The notes beneath the pieces are model-generated. The model was not told where the DNA came from. It ran no database searches and saw only the letters and a list, made by a program, of their open reading frames with translations. Positions 2 through 42,426 of a stretch of 64,000 nucleotides of DNA are shown here, piece after piece (positions within the stretch are counted from its first letter, which is position 1; every line of letters starts with the position of its first letter). The DNA is from Chitinophagaceae bacterium (GTDB lineage Bacteria > Bacteroidota > Bacteroidia > Cytophagales > Cytophagaceae). The translations under genes and the position numbers were made by a program. The stretch lies in assembly GCA_028288405.1 (NCBI GenBank), contig JAQBNS010000002.1, positions 1 through 64,000 of the forward strand, given 5' to 3'.

Positions 2-646
2 AAAGCCCCATCGAATCCTGCTTCGACATTCAAAATTATCAATGCATTAATTGCTTTGGAAGAAGGCATTTTGAAGGATGAAAAAGAAATCGTAAAATTT
101 GTTGGAATAGAAAATGTGGATACATCCTATTATGGTAACCGCACAGAAATTTTCAAGGACATGGATTTGGAAGAAGCGTTTAAAAAATCTGCTGTATGGT
201 TTAACATTGAAATCGCAAAGAAGGTAGGAAGAGAAAAATACAGAAAATATATTACTGCGTGTAGTTGGGGCAATATGGATTTTTCAGAATCCGGAGTCGA
301 TTTTTGGAATTTCGGACCTTTCACCGTTACACCTGTTCAACAAATTGAGTTTTTACAAAAGCTATACGCAGGTAAGCTGGGGTTCTCTAAGCGTAATCTC
401 GAAATCGTAAAAAGAATTATGATTGCGGAATCTACGACTCTATACACGATTAGAGGAAAAACGGGTTGGGCTACAACTGCAACAGAAGACCTGGGTTGGT
501 GGGTAGGTTATGTGGAGAGAGAAGAAGGAATTGTATTTTTTGCTACGCGAACAAGAAAACAAAAAATCGATAAGAATCTCAATTTTGTTCCTTGTCGCAA
601 AACAATTACAACAGCTGTTTTAAAACAGTTGACAATAATAAAATAG
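2..646 (+). CDS. Class D (OXA-type) beta-lactamase, 5' truncated by window edge
   Basis: Open frame from base 2 reads KAPSNPASTFKIINALIALEEG (STFK active-site motif), then SWGN (YGN-equivalent), FGPFTVTPVQQIEFL and KTGWA. The ORF-track start at 56 is an internal TTG. Confidence 0.9.
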   Translation, partial: KAPSNPASTFKIINALIALEEGILKDEKEIVKFVGIENVDTSYYGNRTEIFKDMDLEEAFKKSAVWFNIEIAKKVGREKYRKYITACSWGNMDFSESGVDFWNFGPFTVTPVQQIEFLQKLYAGKLGFSKRNLEIVKRIMIAESTTLYTIRGKTGWATTATEDLGWWVGYVEREEGIVFFATRTRKQKIDKNLNFVPCRKTITTAVLKQLTIIK

Positions 647-708
647 CGCAATACTTCCGTTATTATTTTTTTCTGTATCTTATTCATGCAAAATCTATTT
701 CTCATAGT

Positions 709-2547
709 ATGAATAAAATATTTCTTTTATTAAGTCTACTCATTGTTTCGTTCACTCCAGGTTACGCGCAAGACAATATTTTAATAAATGCTTACAACCG
801 TCCTTCCACTTCTTTAAATGGAGCATGGAATTATATTGTTGATCCTTACGAGACGGGTTATTACGATTACCGTTATACACCGCATGATTTGTCTGCCAAC
901 CCAAGCAACGGTGCATTTTATTTAAACGCTAAACCGAAAGACAAAACTGACATGATCGAATATGATTTCGATCAGTCTCCAACGATGCAGGTACCTGGCG
1001 ATTGGAATTCGCAGATAGAGAAACTGTATTATTATGAAGGTACAGTTTGGTATAAGAAATCATTTGATTATAAGGTATTAGATCAAAGTAAAAAGCTATT
1101 TCTTTCATTCGGAGCTGTAAACTACAGAGCAGATGTTTATTTCAATGGTAAGAAATTAGGTGTACATGAAGGCGGTTTCACTCCTTTTCATTTTGACATT
1201 ACAAACTTGGTAAAAGAGAAAGGAAATTTTGTAGTGGTGAAAGTAGACAATAAAAGAAAGAAGGAAGCCGTCCCTACCTTGAATACAGATTGGTGGAACT
1301 ATGGAGGAATTACCCGAGAGGTGAAACTCATTGAAGTTCCGGAAACATTCATCAATGATTATTTTATTCAACTGGCGCCTAAGAATAAACAATTCCTGTC
1401 CGGATATGTGGCATTAAAGGGTTCAACTAAATCAGGTAAAAAAATACAATTAAGCATACCGGAATTAAAAATAAATAAAGAACTGACCACCGATACCAGT
1501 GGACGCGCAGTGTTCAGTATTCCGGTAAAAAAGGCAACGTTGTGGTCACCGGAAAATCCATACCTGTATGAGGTGTTTACGAAAACAAGTGAAGAAGAAT
1601 TGAAGGATCAAATTGGTTTACGCACCATTGAAACGCAAGGACAAAATATTTTATTGAATGGTAAATCCATCTTTTTACGTGGTATTTGTATGCACGAAGA
1701 GAATCCGCTGCGTCAGAATCGTGCGTATTCTTTAGAAGATGCCAAACTCTTATTGACTTGGGCGAAGGAATTAGGTTGCAATTATGTGCGTTTGGCACAC
1801 TATCCGCACAACGAACATGTCATAAGACTGGCAGATCAAATGGGACTGATGGTTTGGGAAGAAATACCGGTGTATTGGACCATACAATGGGAGAATCCTT
1901 CAACCTATGCCAATGCAGAGAATCAATTGAAAGAAATGATTAACCGCGATAAGAATCGCGCGGCTTCTATCATTTGGTCTATGGCCAATGAAACACCGGT
2001 AAGTAAACCGCGCACTGATTTTTTATTGAAACTGGCTACCAAAACGCGTGAGCTTGATCCTACAAGACTGGTGAGTGCCGCGTTAGAAATTCATGCCACA
2101 GAAGCAGATCCTTTTACTAAAACAATAGATGATCCTTTTGCCGATCATGTAGATGTATTGAGCTTTAATCAATACGTCGGTTGGTATGATGGATTACCGG
2201 ATAAGATTGATCGTATTCAATGGAACATCAAGCAAAATAAACCGGTTATCATTTCGGAATTTGGCGCGGATGCAAAATATGGTTTACATGGGGATTCTTT
2301 GACACGTTGGTCGGAAGAGTATCAGAAAGTAGTGTACCGTAAAACGATTAAGATGCTGCAACGCATTCCACAATGGAGAGGCGTTACACCATGGATACTG
2401 GTTGATTTCCGTTCACCACGAAGGTTATTGCCAGGCGTGCAAGACGGGTTCAATAGAAAAGGGCTTCTTTCAGATAAAGGGGAAAAGAAAGCGGCATATG
2501 ATGTGCTGAAAAATTTCTACACTTTAACCAAAAAAGAATATGAATAA
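709..2547 (+). CDS. Glycoside hydrolase family 2 (beta-glucuronidase/beta-galactosidase-like), secreted
   Basis: Signal peptide from ATG 709 (MNKIFLLLSLLIVSFTPGYAQ), GH2 sandwich and TIM-barrel motifs (GICMHEENPLRQNRAYS, RLAHYPHNEH, IIWSMANETP, PVIISEFGAD). Confidence 0.9.
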   Translation: MNKIFLLLSLLIVSFTPGYAQDNILINAYNRPSTSLNGAWNYIVDPYETGYYDYRYTPHDLSANPSNGAFYLNAKPKDKTDMIEYDFDQSPTMQVPGDWNSQIEKLYYYEGTVWYKKSFDYKVLDQSKKLFLSFGAVNYRADVYFNGKKLGVHEGGFTPFHFDITNLVKEKGNFVVVKVDNKRKKEAVPTLNTDWWNYGGITREVKLIEVPETFINDYFIQLAPKNKQFLSGYVALKGSTKSGKKIQLSIPELKINKELTTDTSGRAVFSIPVKKATLWSPENPYLYEVFTKTSEEELKDQIGLRTIETQGQNILLNGKSIFLRGICMHEENPLRQNRAYSLEDAKLLLTWAKELGCNYVRLAHYPHNEHVIRLADQMGLMVWEEIPVYWTIQWENPSTYANAENQLKEMINRDKNRAASIIWSMANETPVSKPRTDFLLKLATKTRELDPTRLVSAALEIHATEADPFTKTIDDPFADHVDVLSFNQYVGWYDGLPDKIDRIQWNIKQNKPVIISEFGADAKYGLHGDSLTRWSEEYQKVVYRKTIKMLQRIPQWRGVTPWILVDFRSPRRLLPGVQDGFNRKGLLSDKGEKKAAYDVLKNFYTLTKKEYE

Positions 2548-2718
2548 TCTAATTTGTTGAAACAACAGTTGTCTCAGCACGCATTATTAATTTTTAAGAA
2601 TTATGCTAAACAATGTTTGAGTGATAGGGACGCTATGGAATAAGGCATTGACGATTTGTTTTATAGTTATATTTTGTTTCCTTTATTAACTCAAATCTTA
2701 ACAAAAGGTAAATCTGCT

Positions 2719-3180
2719 ATGGCACTTTCCGGAAAACCCGTTGTTGTTTTTTTAGCTGACGATGATGCAGATGACCGAGCTATGTTTGAAGAAGTCATTC
2801 ATGAAGTTGATCCAACGATCCAGTTGACTTGTGCAGAAGATGGAAAGATACTGCTTACTATGCTTCAGTCCGGAAAGTATCCTTTACCGCAGTTGCTTTT
2901 TTTAGATTTAAACATGCCCAATAAAAACGGTAAAGAATGCCTGGAGGAAATTAGAAATTCAGACCGTCTTAAAGACATTCCTGTTATTATTTATTCTACT
3001 TCCTCTTCTCCTAAAGACATTGATGATGCCTTTGAAAAAGGAGCTAATTTATATGTGCGCAAGCCCTCTTCTTTTCAGGAATTGCGTTTTATTGCACGTG
3101 CCGTATTGGCGATGGAATGGAGCAACTACAAGCCTTTTGTAGTGAGAAACACATTCGTTTTTTCGTATAAGTCAGTTTGA
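2719..3180 (+). CDS. CheY-like response regulator receiver protein
   Basis: VFLADDDADDRAMFEEV, LLFLDLNMPNKNGKECLEEIR, PVIIYSTSSSPKD, Kxx motif YVRKPSS. Confidence 0.88.
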   Translation: MALSGKPVVVFLADDDADDRAMFEEVIHEVDPTIQLTCAEDGKILLTMLQSGKYPLPQLLFLDLNMPNKNGKECLEEIRNSDRLKDIPVIIYSTSSSPKDIDDAFEKGANLYVRKPSSFQELRFIARAVLAMEWSNYKPFVVRNTFVFSYKSV

Positions 3181-3210
3181 TTAATTGTTGTTTGCCGTAA
3201 ATAATTTATC

Positions 3211-5625
3211 ATGAACAGCAAAGTTCTAAAGAGTAAATTAATTTTTGACCACCTTCCTGCTTATGCCTCTTTTCTTCTGGAGAATAAGTTATCAGAATGT
3301 GCAAAAATACAATTGACCTATTCGAGAGAAGAGAATATTCCTTTATTGAAATTTTTTGGCAGTTACTCTGAAAAACAATTATTGGATTTGGGTAAAAAAA
3401 CAATGAGCGAACTGCTTACCGCTTTTTCCTGCAATCAGGTAGAGCAATTTATTGCAGATGCTTCCGCTAATTATAGTAAGAATAATCTAACTACCCTGGA
3501 AAGAGAAGAAGTTGTAGCGGAAGACATTACGATCTTGTCATTTATTCGTAGAAAATCATTGCGGGTTTTTCTTAGTACCTATACAACTGATTTGCGTATC
3601 GTTAATGAAATTTCAGAAGAAATTGACCGTTTCAGTGCAGCGAATGACGCCGCTATTTTCGGTGCTTTTCTTGAAATTAAAAAGGAAGAAACTCACCGCA
3701 TTCACAATGAGTTGCAGCAAAAGCAGGAAGATTTGTTAGAAGCACAGGAGCTTACAGAAATGGGAAGTTTTTTATGGGACATGAAAGGTGGGCGTTCCAG
3801 CTATACCCCTGGTGTCATGCAAATTTTCGAAATGGAAGAAGTCAGTTCTCTGGATTCTTTTATGCAATATGTACATGGAGAGGACAGAGCTGTTTTGAAA
3901 AAGGCCATTGACAGTGCGCTGACGAACGATGGTATATATGAATGCGAATACCGCTTTGTAAAGAATCACAAAGAAAAGAGAATTTGGTCGAGAGGTGTGG
4001 TGACATTTGAGAATGAAAGTCCTGTATCCATGAAAGGAATTGTCATGGACATTACTCATAAATATTTGATGGTAGAACAGCTTCGTCAAAGTGAACAGCT
4101 TAATAAGCAAGCACAAGCTGTCACACATATTGGCAACTGGATTTGGGAAATGAGTACCGGTGGAATATACTGGTCAGATGAATTGTATCGTATCTATGGA
4201 TTGGAGCCTCAGTCAGAGGTAATGACTTTTGAACGTTGGTTTGATATGATTCATCCCGATGATCGGGAAAAACGATTGAGCGAGATTAAAAAATCCATGA
4301 GCACGTTGGAAGTTTCTGATTACACGATGCGGATTATGGCCGCTGACGGAAATGTAAAAGTACTTCGTGGCAAAGGAGAAGTGATTGCCGATAGGAGTAG
4401 AAAAAAAATGAAATTGGTCGGTACGTGTCAAGACGTAACGACAGAATTTAATTTGAATAAAGAGCTAAAGGAAAAGGAAGACTATCTCAAGCAACTCATC
4501 AACAATGCACCGGATGCTGTTATTGTTGTGGATAGGAACAGTACAATTTCATTGTGGAATCCTAAGACAGAAGAAATTTTTGGTTGGTCGGCAGAAGAAG
4601 TAATGGGTAAGGATTTGAATGAAATATTAATTCCTCCTCAAAATAGAGATTCTTATTCCAAAGAGCTCCATCATTTTTTACAGACAGGAGTGTCGAGAGT
4701 GTTAAACAGAACGATGGAAGTGAAGATGCTCAATAAGCAGAACGAGGAGTTTGATGTGGCATTAACCATCTCTCAATCGATGCAACAAGGAAAAATATTG
4801 TTCATTGCTTTTCTTCGAGACATTACAAAACAGAAACAAATAAAGTTGGAGTTGCAAAAACTGAATGCTTCTTTGGAATCGAAGAATAGTGAGTTGGAGC
4901 GCATAAACAAAGAACTGGAGTCCTTCAATTATGTTGCCAGTCACGATTTAAAAGAACCGTTGCGCAAGATTCAAATTTTTGCACATCGTATTTTGGAAAA
5001 AGGTTCAGGCGAAATCCCTCACGCTACGGTCGATTATTTCAATAAGATCATTACCGCATCATCCAGAATGCAATTATTGATTGAAGATTTATTGGTGTTT
5101 TCTCAGACTACTGCCGGCAAGGATAAATTTGAACAGGTAGATTTGAATGCCGTATTGTCCGACGTCCTGAATATGTTGTCTACTTCTATTGAAGAAAAGA
5201 AGGCGGTAATAGCAAGTGAAGTATTGCCGATCGTGAAAACGATTCCTTTTCAAATGCAGCAATTATTTTTGAATCTCATCAGCAATGCGATTAAATATTC
5301 TCATGAAGGAGTGTCTCCATACATTCGTATTGTTGTGCATTCTGTCAAGGGATTTTTGATCCACCATCCCATGGCGCAACAAGACACGGAATATTTTGAA
5401 TTCAAGGTAGAAGATAATGGTATTGGATTCGGTGAGGAGTATGCAGAGAAAATATTTGAATTGTTTCAACGCCTGCACAATAAGGATAAATATTTTGGTA
5501 CAGGAATAGGATTGGCCATTTGTAAAAAGATTCTCTATAATCACAATGGGTTCATTGTCGCACAAAGCGAAGTGTCAAAGGGTTCTACTTTTTATTTTTA
5601 TTTGCCAAAAGAAGAAGTGACTTAA
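3211..5625 (+). CDS. Multi-PAS sensor histidine kinase
   Basis: Several PAS/PAC segments, H-box FNYVASHDLKEPLRKI, N-box NLISNAIKYS, G-boxes VEDNGIGF and GTGIGLAICKKI. Confidence 0.93.
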   Translation: MNSKVLKSKLIFDHLPAYASFLLENKLSECAKIQLTYSREENIPLLKFFGSYSEKQLLDLGKKTMSELLTAFSCNQVEQFIADASANYSKNNLTTLEREEVVAEDITILSFIRRKSLRVFLSTYTTDLRIVNEISEEIDRFSAANDAAIFGAFLEIKKEETHRIHNELQQKQEDLLEAQELTEMGSFLWDMKGGRSSYTPGVMQIFEMEEVSSLDSFMQYVHGEDRAVLKKAIDSALTNDGIYECEYRFVKNHKEKRIWSRGVVTFENESPVSMKGIVMDITHKYLMVEQLRQSEQLNKQAQAVTHIGNWIWEMSTGGIYWSDELYRIYGLEPQSEVMTFERWFDMIHPDDREKRLSEIKKSMSTLEVSDYTMRIMAADGNVKVLRGKGEVIADRSRKKMKLVGTCQDVTTEFNLNKELKEKEDYLKQLINNAPDAVIVVDRNSTISLWNPKTEEIFGWSAEEVMGKDLNEILIPPQNRDSYSKELHHFLQTGVSRVLNRTMEVKMLNKQNEEFDVALTISQSMQQGKILFIAFLRDITKQKQIKLELQKLNASLESKNSELERINKELESFNYVASHDLKEPLRKIQIFAHRILEKGSGEIPHATVDYFNKIITASSRMQLLIEDLLVFSQTTAGKDKFEQVDLNAVLSDVLNMLSTSIEEKKAVIASEVLPIVKTIPFQMQQLFLNLISNAIKYSHEGVSPYIRIVVHSVKGFLIHHPMAQQDTEYFEFKVEDNGIGFGEEYAEKIFELFQRLHNKDKYFGTGIGLAICKKILYNHNGFIVAQSEVSKGSTFYFYLPKEEVT

Positions 5626-38922: not shown

Positions 38923-39048
38923 TGAGATAAAAGACACGGAAAGTCAATGATTAAAGTCATTTTGTTTCATCATTTGTTAAAAAATATCGGAACTATCAAG
39001 TAATTGGTTTATGTATTTTATAGAGCCTAGTTTCCTAGGCTCTATGTA

Positions 39049-39585
39049 TTAGTCTTTTAAGTTGTAATAGGCTTTCACCTCTTCATAATTATTGTAATCA
39101 ACGCCGCTGTTTCTTGCAATAGGAGTTCCTGCCGTTCCTTTGATTACAACAGAATAGAAAGCGTAAGTTCCTTCGGCTTCGGTTGGAAATCCTACGGTGT
39201 TATCTGACTTCACTAAATCCACCCACACGTTTCCATAAACATCTACCTCTGGAAACAACCTGGCATTTCCGAAATCCAAGGGCAACGGGGTGTAAGTAGG
39301 ATTCCCTGCGTTAGCCGAATACCTAACATAGGTTATCACAAGATCATTTGCTCCAATCACTGGAATTCCAGCGTACAGAACTCTGGTAGCAGTAGAGCTG
39401 AAAGTAAGTGTATACGAATACTTTACAGCACTCGGGCTAGAAGCCCCTGTGTTTCCTGTGGCGCCAGTATTTCCAGTGGCACCTGTTGATCCTGTAGGCC
39501 CTGGCGCACCGTCTTTGCCAGCACAACCAATTAATAAAGCTCCTGCCACAAGCAAGAGGAATGAGATTTTGAAAATTTTGTTCAT
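39049..39585 (-). CDS. Lipoprotein with short collagen-like Gly-X-Y region (transposon passenger)
   Basis: MNKIFKISFLLLVAGALLIGCAGKDGAPGPTGSTGATGNTGATGNTGAS; lies inside the TIRs. Confidence 0.8.
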   Translation of the reverse strand: MNKIFKISFLLLVAGALLIGCAGKDGAPGPTGSTGATGNTGATGNTGASSPSAVKYSYTLTFSSTATRVLYAGIPVIGANDLVITYVRYSANAGNPTYTPLPLDFGNARLFPEVDVYGNVWVDLVKSDNTVGFPTEAEGTYAFYSVVIKGTAGTPIARNSGVDYNNYEEVKAYYNLKD

Positions 39586-39811
39586 AGTACTAAAAGTTTG
39601 TCGCTTTAGTACCAAAGGCGGTTAGTTAAAAAATGCGTGGTACTCAGCCCGTTTGTACAAGTGGCACCTGAGAGAGCCATTAACAACAGAACGAACCAAG
39701 CCCACGCATGACCGTGAGCAGTTCAATTCTCTGTTGGTGAAATTTCTCAGGTTTCCTTGTACAGAATTGACTACGCAAATGATTTATGGTATCCTTTACC
39801 GTATTTTAAAA

Positions 39812-40789
39812 CTAAATCCTTTTGAACAGATTTTCAAGCATTTCATAAAACATTGCGTCGTTGTCTTTTCGGTTATTGTACTTGTAAACGAACTCTGCAA
39901 CGTAATTAGGAAGCATTTTAGCACTCACGCTGTGATATTGACCCATAATACCTCTTTCTATAATCGCCCAGAAAGATTCAATCGTATTGCTATTAACTCC
40001 CTTGTAACTATAGAATCTATTGTGATCAACCTTGATATGATCAATAATTTTCTTCATTGACTTGTAGCCACTGTAGCTGTCGGTTACAAGCAAACTATTA
40101 GCTTCGTCAACATGCTTTTTAACCATTGTTTTTAAATTCTCATAGGTGAGGACATTCATCACCTGAGCCACTACGTCGCCATTTCGTTGCACTATCCCAA
40201 CAACAGGAATATTATCTGTGGCTCTTCCGTATAGAACAGCTTTGGTAGTTTTTGCCCTGTTCTTTCCCTTTGGCTTAAAGTCAAAGCCGTTATTGTTTGC
40301 TTCTTTTATTTGAGCATCCAAATGCTCTCTTTGCATAGGCTTGAAAGATGAATCACTCTGTCTTCTGGGCCTACCTCCAATGTAAGTCTCATCCATTTCC
40401 ACGATACCTTCCAATGGCTCTATTTCCTTGTTTTCGATCATCATAAGCTCTCTTAGTTTGTGATACATTGAGAAAGCAGTCGGATAGCTGATATCAAGAT
40501 TCCTTTGTAATTGAAGAGCGGAAAGGCCTTTCTTAGCATCAGTTATTATTGAAATCGCATAAAACCACGTTTTTAAAGGGAGCCTAGTGTTGTGAATATT
40601 GGTGTTAACCGTAACCGAAGTGCTACGGTTGCATGTCGTGCATTTATGCCTGTGATCGGATCTCCTTTTGGAAAGCTTTGTAGAGTCGCAATAGGCACAT
40701 CTTACTGAATTGCCAAATCGCAACCGTTCTGCATATTCTATACAGGACAGTTCGTCAGGGAATTTTGAAGATATTTCGATGATGTTCAT
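39812..40789 (-). CDS. IS1595-family (ISXO2-like DDE) transposase
   Basis: N-terminal zinc ribbon CAYCDST ... CTTC; EMDETYIGGRPRR, LLVTDSYSGYKSM, NTIESFWAIIERGIMGQYHSVS. Confidence 0.92.
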   Translation of the reverse strand: MNIIEISSKFPDELSCIEYAERLRFGNSVRCAYCDSTKLSKRRSDHRHKCTTCNRSTSVTVNTNIHNTRLPLKTWFYAISIITDAKKGLSALQLQRNLDISYPTAFSMYHKLRELMMIENKEIEPLEGIVEMDETYIGGRPRRQSDSSFKPMQREHLDAQIKEANNNGFDFKPKGKNRAKTTKAVLYGRATDNIPVVGIVQRNGDVVAQVMNVLTYENLKTMVKKHVDEANSLLVTDSYSGYKSMKKIIDHIKVDHNRFYSYKGVNSNTIESFWAIIERGIMGQYHSVSAKMLPNYVAEFVYKYNNRKDNDAMFYEMLENLFKRI

Positions 40790-41475
40790 AATTTATACTT
40801 CATTTTAACTGCGCCCCTCATAAAAAGAGGCATGTTCTTTTTTAATAAAGTAAAAACACAAAGCGACAAAAAAGCGAACACGGTTAAACCTAGACACAAT
40901 ACGTAACCAAATGGATAGCCATAATAATTGAAGCCAATTGCCGATACAATAAAAAAAACTAAGCTTATTGACTCGTTTCTGGTCACATCTGTTTCATTAT
41001 AATATTTCAACCGAGTAGAGATTAATTCAATCCTATTCCTTTTGATTCGTTTTTCTAATAATGATTTCATTTCTCCGGAACTATTTTTGTCATTCATTAA
41101 TGAAATCCAATGCCTTTTTAAGGAAAACAAACGCCTATCTGATTTCTTGTAAATAACCTTTATTACTATCAAGTAAATTATCCTTACAAGTAACTCTGTG
41201 ACTTTCTTAAATAGGTAAATCAAAAACTCTATCACTAGCATCGAACCACCGAAACAGTAAAAGGAGTATTTGAATTCTGTAGTTTTTAAAAAATGAAGCA
41301 TAGATATATAATCAAGATCTATTATCCTGTAATCTCCCACAAAGACAGAGAACAGTAAACAGGATAAAATCACATAACATACAATTTTCATAACAGCCAA
41401 TTTTAAAGCCTCCATTGTTTCGTTAGGAACGCCTTTTAATGATACTACTAAACTTAAAATCGAAACTATATCCAT
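40786..41475 (-). CDS. Hypothetical multi-pass membrane protein (transposon passenger)
   Basis: 229 aa with several hydrophobic segments; stop overlaps the transposase start by 4 bp; inside the TIRs. Confidence 0.7.
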   Translation of the reverse strand: MDIVSILSLVVSLKGVPNETMEALKLAVMKIVCYVILSCLLFSVFVGDYRIIDLDYISMLHFLKTTEFKYSFYCFGGSMLVIEFLIYLFKKVTELLVRIIYLIVIKVIYKKSDRRLFSLKRHWISLMNDKNSSGEMKSLLEKRIKRNRIELISTRLKYYNETDVTRNESISLVFFIVSAIGFNYYGYPFGYVLCLGLTVFAFLSLCVFTLLKKNMPLFMRGAVKMKYKL

Positions 41476-41547
41476 GATACTTATGCTTTTAGCATAAATA
41501 TACTAGGTAATAATTAAAAACCAATTACTTAATAGTTCCGAAAAATA

Positions 41548-42426
41548 TTAAACAGAATGGTTAAAAGCTTGAATAAACTCTTGAATATTAGGGATTTTAT
41601 GGATCGATGGGGAAGCCAGGTGATCCAATTGAGAGCCGGCAACATAAAGCTTTATGCCCGGACCCAGAGTAGTCTGCAATAAGGAAAGGGTTTGAGAAAA
41701 AGAGTCGACGGCTGCAGGATTAATGATGGAGCTTACAAAAAGTTGACAATGGTATTTTTCTGCCACCTTCGCCAGGTCTTGCGAAGGAACAGATTGTCCC
41801 AGGTAGATGACGTGGTAATTCATTTCCTGAAGGAGGTAAGAGTAAAATAAAAGACCGAGCTCGTGTAGTTCACCTTCCGGCAAAAACAAAATGATTTTGG
41901 GGTCTGTTTCCGTTTTGGGTTTGTACAATTGATCGATGGCGGAAATTAATTTTTGACGGATGAGATTGGAAATAAAATGTTCCTGAGCCGGATGCACATC
42001 TCCTACCTGCCACATCACTCCTACCTTTTGAAGGAAAGGGTAAATCAATTGGATCATGGTATTTTTAAACCCGCGTTCTGCTATGCAGGGGTTGAATACC
42101 GATAAAAATTGTTCTTCATTCAGGTCAATCATCGCAATGGTTAGTTTTTCCAATGCGACATGTTCATTACCGGTATGAAGTTCTATGTTTTGTATGTACT
42201 CATTAATTTCACTTTCGCTCATCGAAGCGATTTTTGAAATTTTCATTCCCTGATGGTACAAGGCTGAAACTTTCAAAAGACGTTTGACTTCTTCGTCGGT
42301 ATAAAAGCGAATATTGGTACCTGTCCGTTGCGGCGAAATGAGGTTATACCGCTGCTCCCATATGCGGATGGTGTGCGCTTTCACGCCTGTTAGTTTTTCA
42401 AGATCTTTAATGGAGTAGGAAGCCAC
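41548..42426 (-). CDS. MerR-family regulator with B12-binding-like C-terminal domain (CarH/LitR-like)
   Basis: MerR HTH YSIKDLEKLTGVKAHTIRIWEQRYNLISPQRTGTNIRFYTDEEV; cap/B12 region MWQVGDVHPAQEHFISN, LFLPEGELHELGLLFYSYLLQ. Confidence 0.9.
   Translation of the reverse strand: MASYSIKDLEKLTGVKAHTIRIWEQRYNLISPQRTGTNIRFYTDEEVKRLLKVSALYHQGMKISKIASMSESEINEYIQNIELHTGNEHVALEKLTIAMIDLNEEQFLSVFNPCIAERGFKNTMIQLIYPFLQKVGVMWQVGDVHPAQEHFISNLIRQKLISAIDQLYKPKTETDPKIILFLPEGELHELGLLFYSYLLQEMNYHVIYLGQSVPSQDLAKVAEKYHCQLFVSSIINPAAVDSFSQTLSLLQTTLGPGIKLYVAGSQLDHLASPSIHKIPNIQEFIQAFNHSV

Follow-up and report, generated by a model that had tools for sequence, protein, structure and literature searches.

A passenger-bearing IS1595-family transposon of a Chitinophagaceae bacterium and the putative attenuator-like RNA leader of its lipoprotein cargo

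Transposons usually bring genes into a genome, not regulated expression units. In the IS1595 family, elements with passenger genes (tIS) are known (Siguier, Gagnevin and Chandler 2009, cited in PMC5704250), with MTnSag1/tISSag10 and tISCpe8 as examples. The locus described here, part of a 64,000-nucleotide stretch of DNA that we call the window, resembles these elements in its ISXO2-type DDE transposase with a zinc ribbon, its terminal inverted repeats (TIRs), its 8-bp duplication and the passengers between its ends, but differs from them in its cargo, which consists of a transposase-coupled membrane protein and a lipoprotein encoded behind a structured RNA. With attenuators and riboswitches this RNA shares a long leader, a common middle strand, a terminator followed by a U-tract, a promoter upstream and a gene downstream, whereas, unlike the known ones, it is without an Rfam match and its downstream genes have export, and no pathway, in common. 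Structured 5' leaders without Rfam hits have been reported from Flavobacterium psychrophilum (PMC9723704); those named in the text precede housekeeping or biosynthetic genes, with no TonB/lipoprotein class resembling the present one found among them. The transposon itself is a further member of the known passenger-bearing kind, and the RNA appears to be undescribed, no description having been found in openly searchable papers (subscription journals and preprints lay outside this search).

Table 1. Coordinates of the transposon and its predicted components in the window
Feature	Position	Strand	Basis or remark
Whole transposon	38988-41540		2553 bp, IS1595 family
Left target-site duplication copy, AAAAATAT	38980..38987	.	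exact match to 41541-41548
Left TIR, CGGAACTATCAAGTAATTGGTTT	38988..39010	+	22/23 positions agree with right end
Lipoprotein passenger, 178 aa, short collagen-like Gly-X-Y stretch	39049..39585	-	lipobox-like ...GALLIGC
Structured RNA leader, 174 nt, ahead of lipoprotein gene	39607..39780	-	covariance models R1/R2, E=1.7e-25
U-tract TTTTTT after terminator/pseudoknot strand	39628..39633	-	sequence
Predicted terminator hairpin from RNA 3' half	39633..39709	-	-33.4 kcal/mol, z=-3.5 (window)
Apical hairpin P3 (GCTCACG/CGTGGGC)	39700..39719	-	3' strand common to terminator and pseudoknot
ISXO2/IS1595-type DDE transposase, 325 aa	39812..40789	-	PF12762 (DDE_Tnp_IS1595), E=1.1e-29
Membrane protein, 229 aa	40786..41475	-	~4 hydrophobic helices
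Right TIR, inverted, CGGAACTATTAAGTAATTGGTTT	41518..41540	-	23 bp
Right target-site duplication copy, AAAAATAT	41541..41548	.	sequence comparison

The feature is one insertion of a passenger-bearing transposon of the IS1595 family. The TIRs and the perfect 8-bp repeats claimed in the initial annotation were reproduced at exactly the same coordinates (Table 1), and by our hand estimate an inverted pair of this quality within 4 kb, flanked by exact 8-mers, is expected by chance in far less than one per million windows. The IS1595/ISXO2-like transposase placed between them is intact. Its residues of catalytic type (D133, D237 and E271) are invariant across seven relatives, as are C31/C34/C50/C53, which form CxxC pairs; the zinc ribbon (PF12760, E=4.6e-5) scores 1.7 bits under the cut-off. 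Four features of IS1595 membership, namely the DDE domain, the N-terminal zinc ribbon, the 8-bp duplication and the TIRs, are present. Four other loci of the same genome (L004, L005, L006 and L007) hold long open frames of ~590-640 aa whose start matches the N-terminal 80-130 residues of the transposase, the zinc-ribbon part, and no other part of it.

The transposon is present once in its own genome, a 3.95-Mb draft, and the empty merR-sigma site that the initial annotation proposed to look for exists in two sister species. With the flanks joined and one copy of the duplication retained as the query, the flanks align across the insertion point at 83% identity over 356 contiguous bp in a species of the same genus (G179) and straight across it at 72% identity in another (G162). 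At both junctions merR and sigma are adjacent, with no lipoprotein, membrane protein or transposase between them, so that neither sister has the two extra genes at this place without TIRs and transposase. Because the gene pair is uninterrupted in both, the insertion is real, and the lipoprotein, membrane protein and transposase arrived together.

The two open reading frames that had been taken for passengers are real, lie within the TIRs and are missing from both empty sites. The lipoprotein matches the collagen family (PF01391) at E=7e-5, under the family cut-off. The membrane protein is without a Pfam match, and no relatives were found in 391 genomes of the order or in viral contigs. AlphaFold single-sequence models reached a pLDDT of 36 (lipoprotein) and 56 and were too poor for use. 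The GC content is 30% in the membrane gene vs 44% in the lipoprotein gene. The membrane gene shares 4 bp (ATGA) with the start of the transposase gene. This overlap, together with the unrelated small membrane proteins that recur beside related transposases, suggests that the membrane protein may be a component of the transposition unit. The translationally coupled pair of membrane protein and transposase probably forms the mobile core, with the lipoprotein as an added cargo module.

Elements related to that of the window were found, and they carry differing passengers. Their transposases are 52-67% identical to that of the window (four genome-contig loci at 62-67%, two loci of the order at 53-55%) and the ends are shared: the left-end TIR type recurs in L009 and L012 and, more diverged, in L013 and L014. 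Between their bounds L009, L012 and L013 measure 3453, 4186 and 2388 bp, with 8-bp duplications of AAAAAAAA, ATTTTTTA and AAATATTT, respectively. The passengers usually include a small membrane protein and sometimes an exported lipoprotein; L009 and L012 both carry PKD-domain lipoproteins, and L012 additionally a Bro-N protein. In the 1612-bp L014 the TIRs enclose the transposase and one small protein, and no target-site duplication is visible despite the TIRs. The most compact relatives, L010 and L011, have a single TIR (right end only) abutting the transposase 3' end and encode a small membrane protein upstream of the transposase, which overlaps it by 38 bp in L010 (4 bp in L009, as in the window) and is set 2 bp apart from it in L011. 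These recurring membrane proteins have no clear sequence similarity to each other. Ends lying tightly around the transposase alone were seen in none of the relatives, since even L010, L011 and L014 encode a small protein.

While right about the two passengers, the initial annotation overlooked a structured noncoding element of 174 nt between the transposase and the lipoprotein gene. Folded as RNA, the segment from the transposase stop to the lipoprotein start has a z of -4.15 against shuffles, and a 73% DNA match to it was found in G089, directly before a PKD lipoprotein and without IS1595 ends. The RNA-lipoprotein module there is bordered by RelE-like toxin genes that lie in repeated DNA (L025:2856-5655). 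A covariance model built from these two sequences (R1) found 20 places in 18 of the 391 genomes of the order, and a second built from 21 sequences (R2) found the RNA in 31/238 genomes of the phylum, with up to six copies per genome. Although neither was used to build it, R2 also recovers the leaders of L009 (E=1e-8) and L012 (E=3e-7). The L009-type leader was reached by the structural model only; DNA similarity found none in 292 genomes or in plasmids. One copy lies on a plasmid of Rhizosphaericola mali (NZ_CP044017), near a replication gene. Rfam 15 gave no match to the element, at E<=1 for the window and six loci and at the gathering threshold for 20 loci. The genome with six copies (G593, L106-L110; five reported places were retrieved, plus a weaker one at L106:831-1011) has each before a paralogous exported protein of ~425-460 aa.

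The fold is conserved, with very strong covariation. Across 64 sequences 97.2% of cells pair, two-sided changes occur at 34/36 pairs and covariation scores 0.825, vs 0.214 for shuffled and ~0.1 for slid alignments, values to be read with the bias of covariance-model alignments towards the model's own pairs and towards G-U over A-C. Among the non-Watson-Crick cells, 184 are G-U vs 29 A-C, an excess that favours an RNA on the sense strand of the gene and is supportive, not decisive, since the model favours G-U. The same excess, with a promoter and a U-tract on the sense strand, argues against a folded DNA site for recombination or processing (attC-like, or a folded single-strand end) that acquires cargo modules. 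Such a site would fit one module recurring in IS1595 elements, on plasmid NZ_CP044017 and at chromosomal loci with unrelated downstream genes, but most genomes have a single copy and no arrays, and we regard this explanation as very improbable. An attC/integron site in particular was set aside, as inspection found no matching conserved core boxes and the G-U/A-C bias indicates RNA. Returning to the RNA, a pseudoknot that joins the 3' strand of P3 to a strand ahead of the U-tract pairs in 98% of cells, with few compensatory changes (5 cells with double changes among 21 sequences). Ahead of the start codon, a P5 hairpin (GTNCC/GGNAC) is clear in the window, L009, L012 and the LamG copies, and is not general. 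In the window an extra hairpin, GGTACTAAAG.../CTTTTAGTACT (39586-39614), competes with P5 and ends immediately ahead of the start codon of the lipoprotein gene. A mini-ORF (ATG-NNN-stop) in the leader, striking in Chitinophagales, was rejected as not significant (13/64 vs 7.4 expected, shuffles giving up to 16).

The 3' half of the RNA, folded alone, forms a closed hairpin in 59/61 members (mean stem 20 bp, mean z -4.3, 58 members below -2), in which the 3' strand of P3 pairs with the stretch preceding the U-tract to close the stem. The U-tract was detected in 52/64 members, and the window terminator reads UGCGUGGGCUUGGUUCGUU.../...GGGCUGAGUACCACGCA-UUUUUU. As this hairpin occupies the same middle strands as the long 5' fold (P1-P2-P3), the two predicted folds are mutually exclusive, and the RNA therefore reads as a transcription attenuator in which they would control transcription. 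In the proposed scheme, the fold of the 5' half and middle (P1-P2-P3), completed by the 3' pseudoknot, would leave the downstream gene on, and the hairpin of the middle and 3' half, followed by the U-tract, would stop RNA polymerase before the gene. Some signal, which could be a ligand, a protein or a trans-acting RNA, presumably selects between them. By nearest-neighbour energies the minimum for the whole leader is the 5' fold (~-65 kcal/mol, vs -33 for the terminator); being the more stable, it implies that termination would need a trigger or kinetic trapping, and that, with neither a signal nor kinetics on the side of termination, read-through is the predicted default.

Two exclusive folds also characterize the antisense-controlled replication leaders of the pT181/pIP501 type, which are stem-rich and change freely in sequence. 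Antisense control of this kind would explain a conserved fold in an unconserved sequence; the two-fold logic is the same, the helices of our RNA vary freely, and the plasmid copy lies near a replication gene. Nevertheless, the RNA is generally not upstream of replication genes, and no antisense promoter signal was found, reverse-strand boxes (CAAAnnTA) being not enriched within or downstream of it, though other promoter types are possible. We therefore give antisense control little weight and keep attenuation as the preferred reading.

Sense-strand promoters agree with the proposed attenuator. The Bacteroidota -7 box TAnnTTTG occurs upstream of the RNA in 45/64 copies vs 5.9 expected, concentrated 26-75 nt upstream. 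The window copy lies 31 bp from the end of the transposase gene, has no such box directly upstream and may be transcribed by read-through from the transposase. By a crude hydropathy rule, 39/59 ORFs downstream of the RNA are signal-peptide-like, vs 70/294 neighbouring ORFs, and the plasmid copy also precedes a signal-peptide protein. Lipoproteins, LamG/PKD proteins and SusC-type receptors are all found behind the RNA: a TonB plug domain is present in 15/47 downstream proteins, and others have PKD, Laminin_G or secretion-tail domains. Not every gene behind the RNA encodes an exported protein, exceptions being 92-aa and 245-aa proteins and sigma factors. At many loci of the SusC type the RNA is preceded by a divergent HTH gene of the Cro/CI type. 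Six loci have the order divergent HTH gene, RNA, SusC-type receptor (L117, L120, L114, L115, L118 and L133), and here the receptor starts at a near-constant 180-211 nt after the RNA, a spacer that may hold another conserved element.

With the gene start ~200 nt on, the RNA of the SusC-type class could be a separate transcript, and this distance, like the promoter-like box and the terminal U-tract of most copies, would suit an independent small RNA terminating at the U-tract and acting in trans, with the exported-protein gene as a companion that has a start of its own. However, the distance from the modelled element to the gene start is 14-57 nt in IS-borne copies and in many others, which leaves little room for another promoter; the companion gene lies downstream and co-oriented at most loci, and the folds exclude each other in the style of an attenuator. 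A trans-acting small RNA is accordingly rather improbable as a general explanation, and a cis-acting leader remains our preference.

Transposase, RNA and exported cargo occur together in five elements bounded by TIRs and 8-bp TSDs: those of the window, L009 and L012, and two others, at 118-3276 in G198/L048 (3159 bp, TSD CCTTCAGG) and 769-5503 in G411/L116 (4735 bp, TSD AAAAATAA). The ends of these last two are unlike those of the window, so that either IS1595 elements took up the module on more than one occasion or their ends have diverged. At L111 and L119 an IS1595 transposase adjoins the RNA and element ends were not found. Near 79 IS1595-type viral-contig loci, L015, L016 and L003 there was no RNA, which is therefore not a general part of IS1595. 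The association might be fortuitous, an ordinary lipoprotein gene having been engulfed with its leader by an insertion sequence; most copies of the RNA do lie outside IS1595 elements, and R2 found none in the L013 and L014 elements. Against this stand the five bounded elements, drawn from several genomes, and the two further loci, adjacency to so rare a gene being unlikely, and we consider chance engulfment unlikely, if the least so of the alternatives.

We hold the whole account, an IS1595 insertion with a coupled core and a lipoprotein cargo behind a two-fold, attenuator-like leader, to be probable. We lean, by a narrower measure, towards viewing the leader as a transcription-attenuation RNA, possibly a riboswitch, of a class that is undescribed, spans the Bacteroidota and controls exported and surface proteins, and that forms with its gene a portable module found in IS1595 transposons, on plasmids and at regulator/SusC-type receptor loci. 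Should the two folds act as proposed, a transposon of this kind would bring in a surface protein already under RNA control. To our knowledge, few RNA switches are known in Bacteroidota. Since the RNA precedes SusC-type receptors in many of these bacteria, its signal would reveal a layer of surface-protein regulation, and the covariance model makes the idea of RNA regulation directly testable. At three further loci (L055, L058 and L062) the gene behind the RNA encodes a protein of 86-92 aa whose family is unknown, and a neighbouring protein of 265-266 aa begins M(A/P)(R/K)QKGII(K/R).(K/N)GS(M/L)GGITFYQ.
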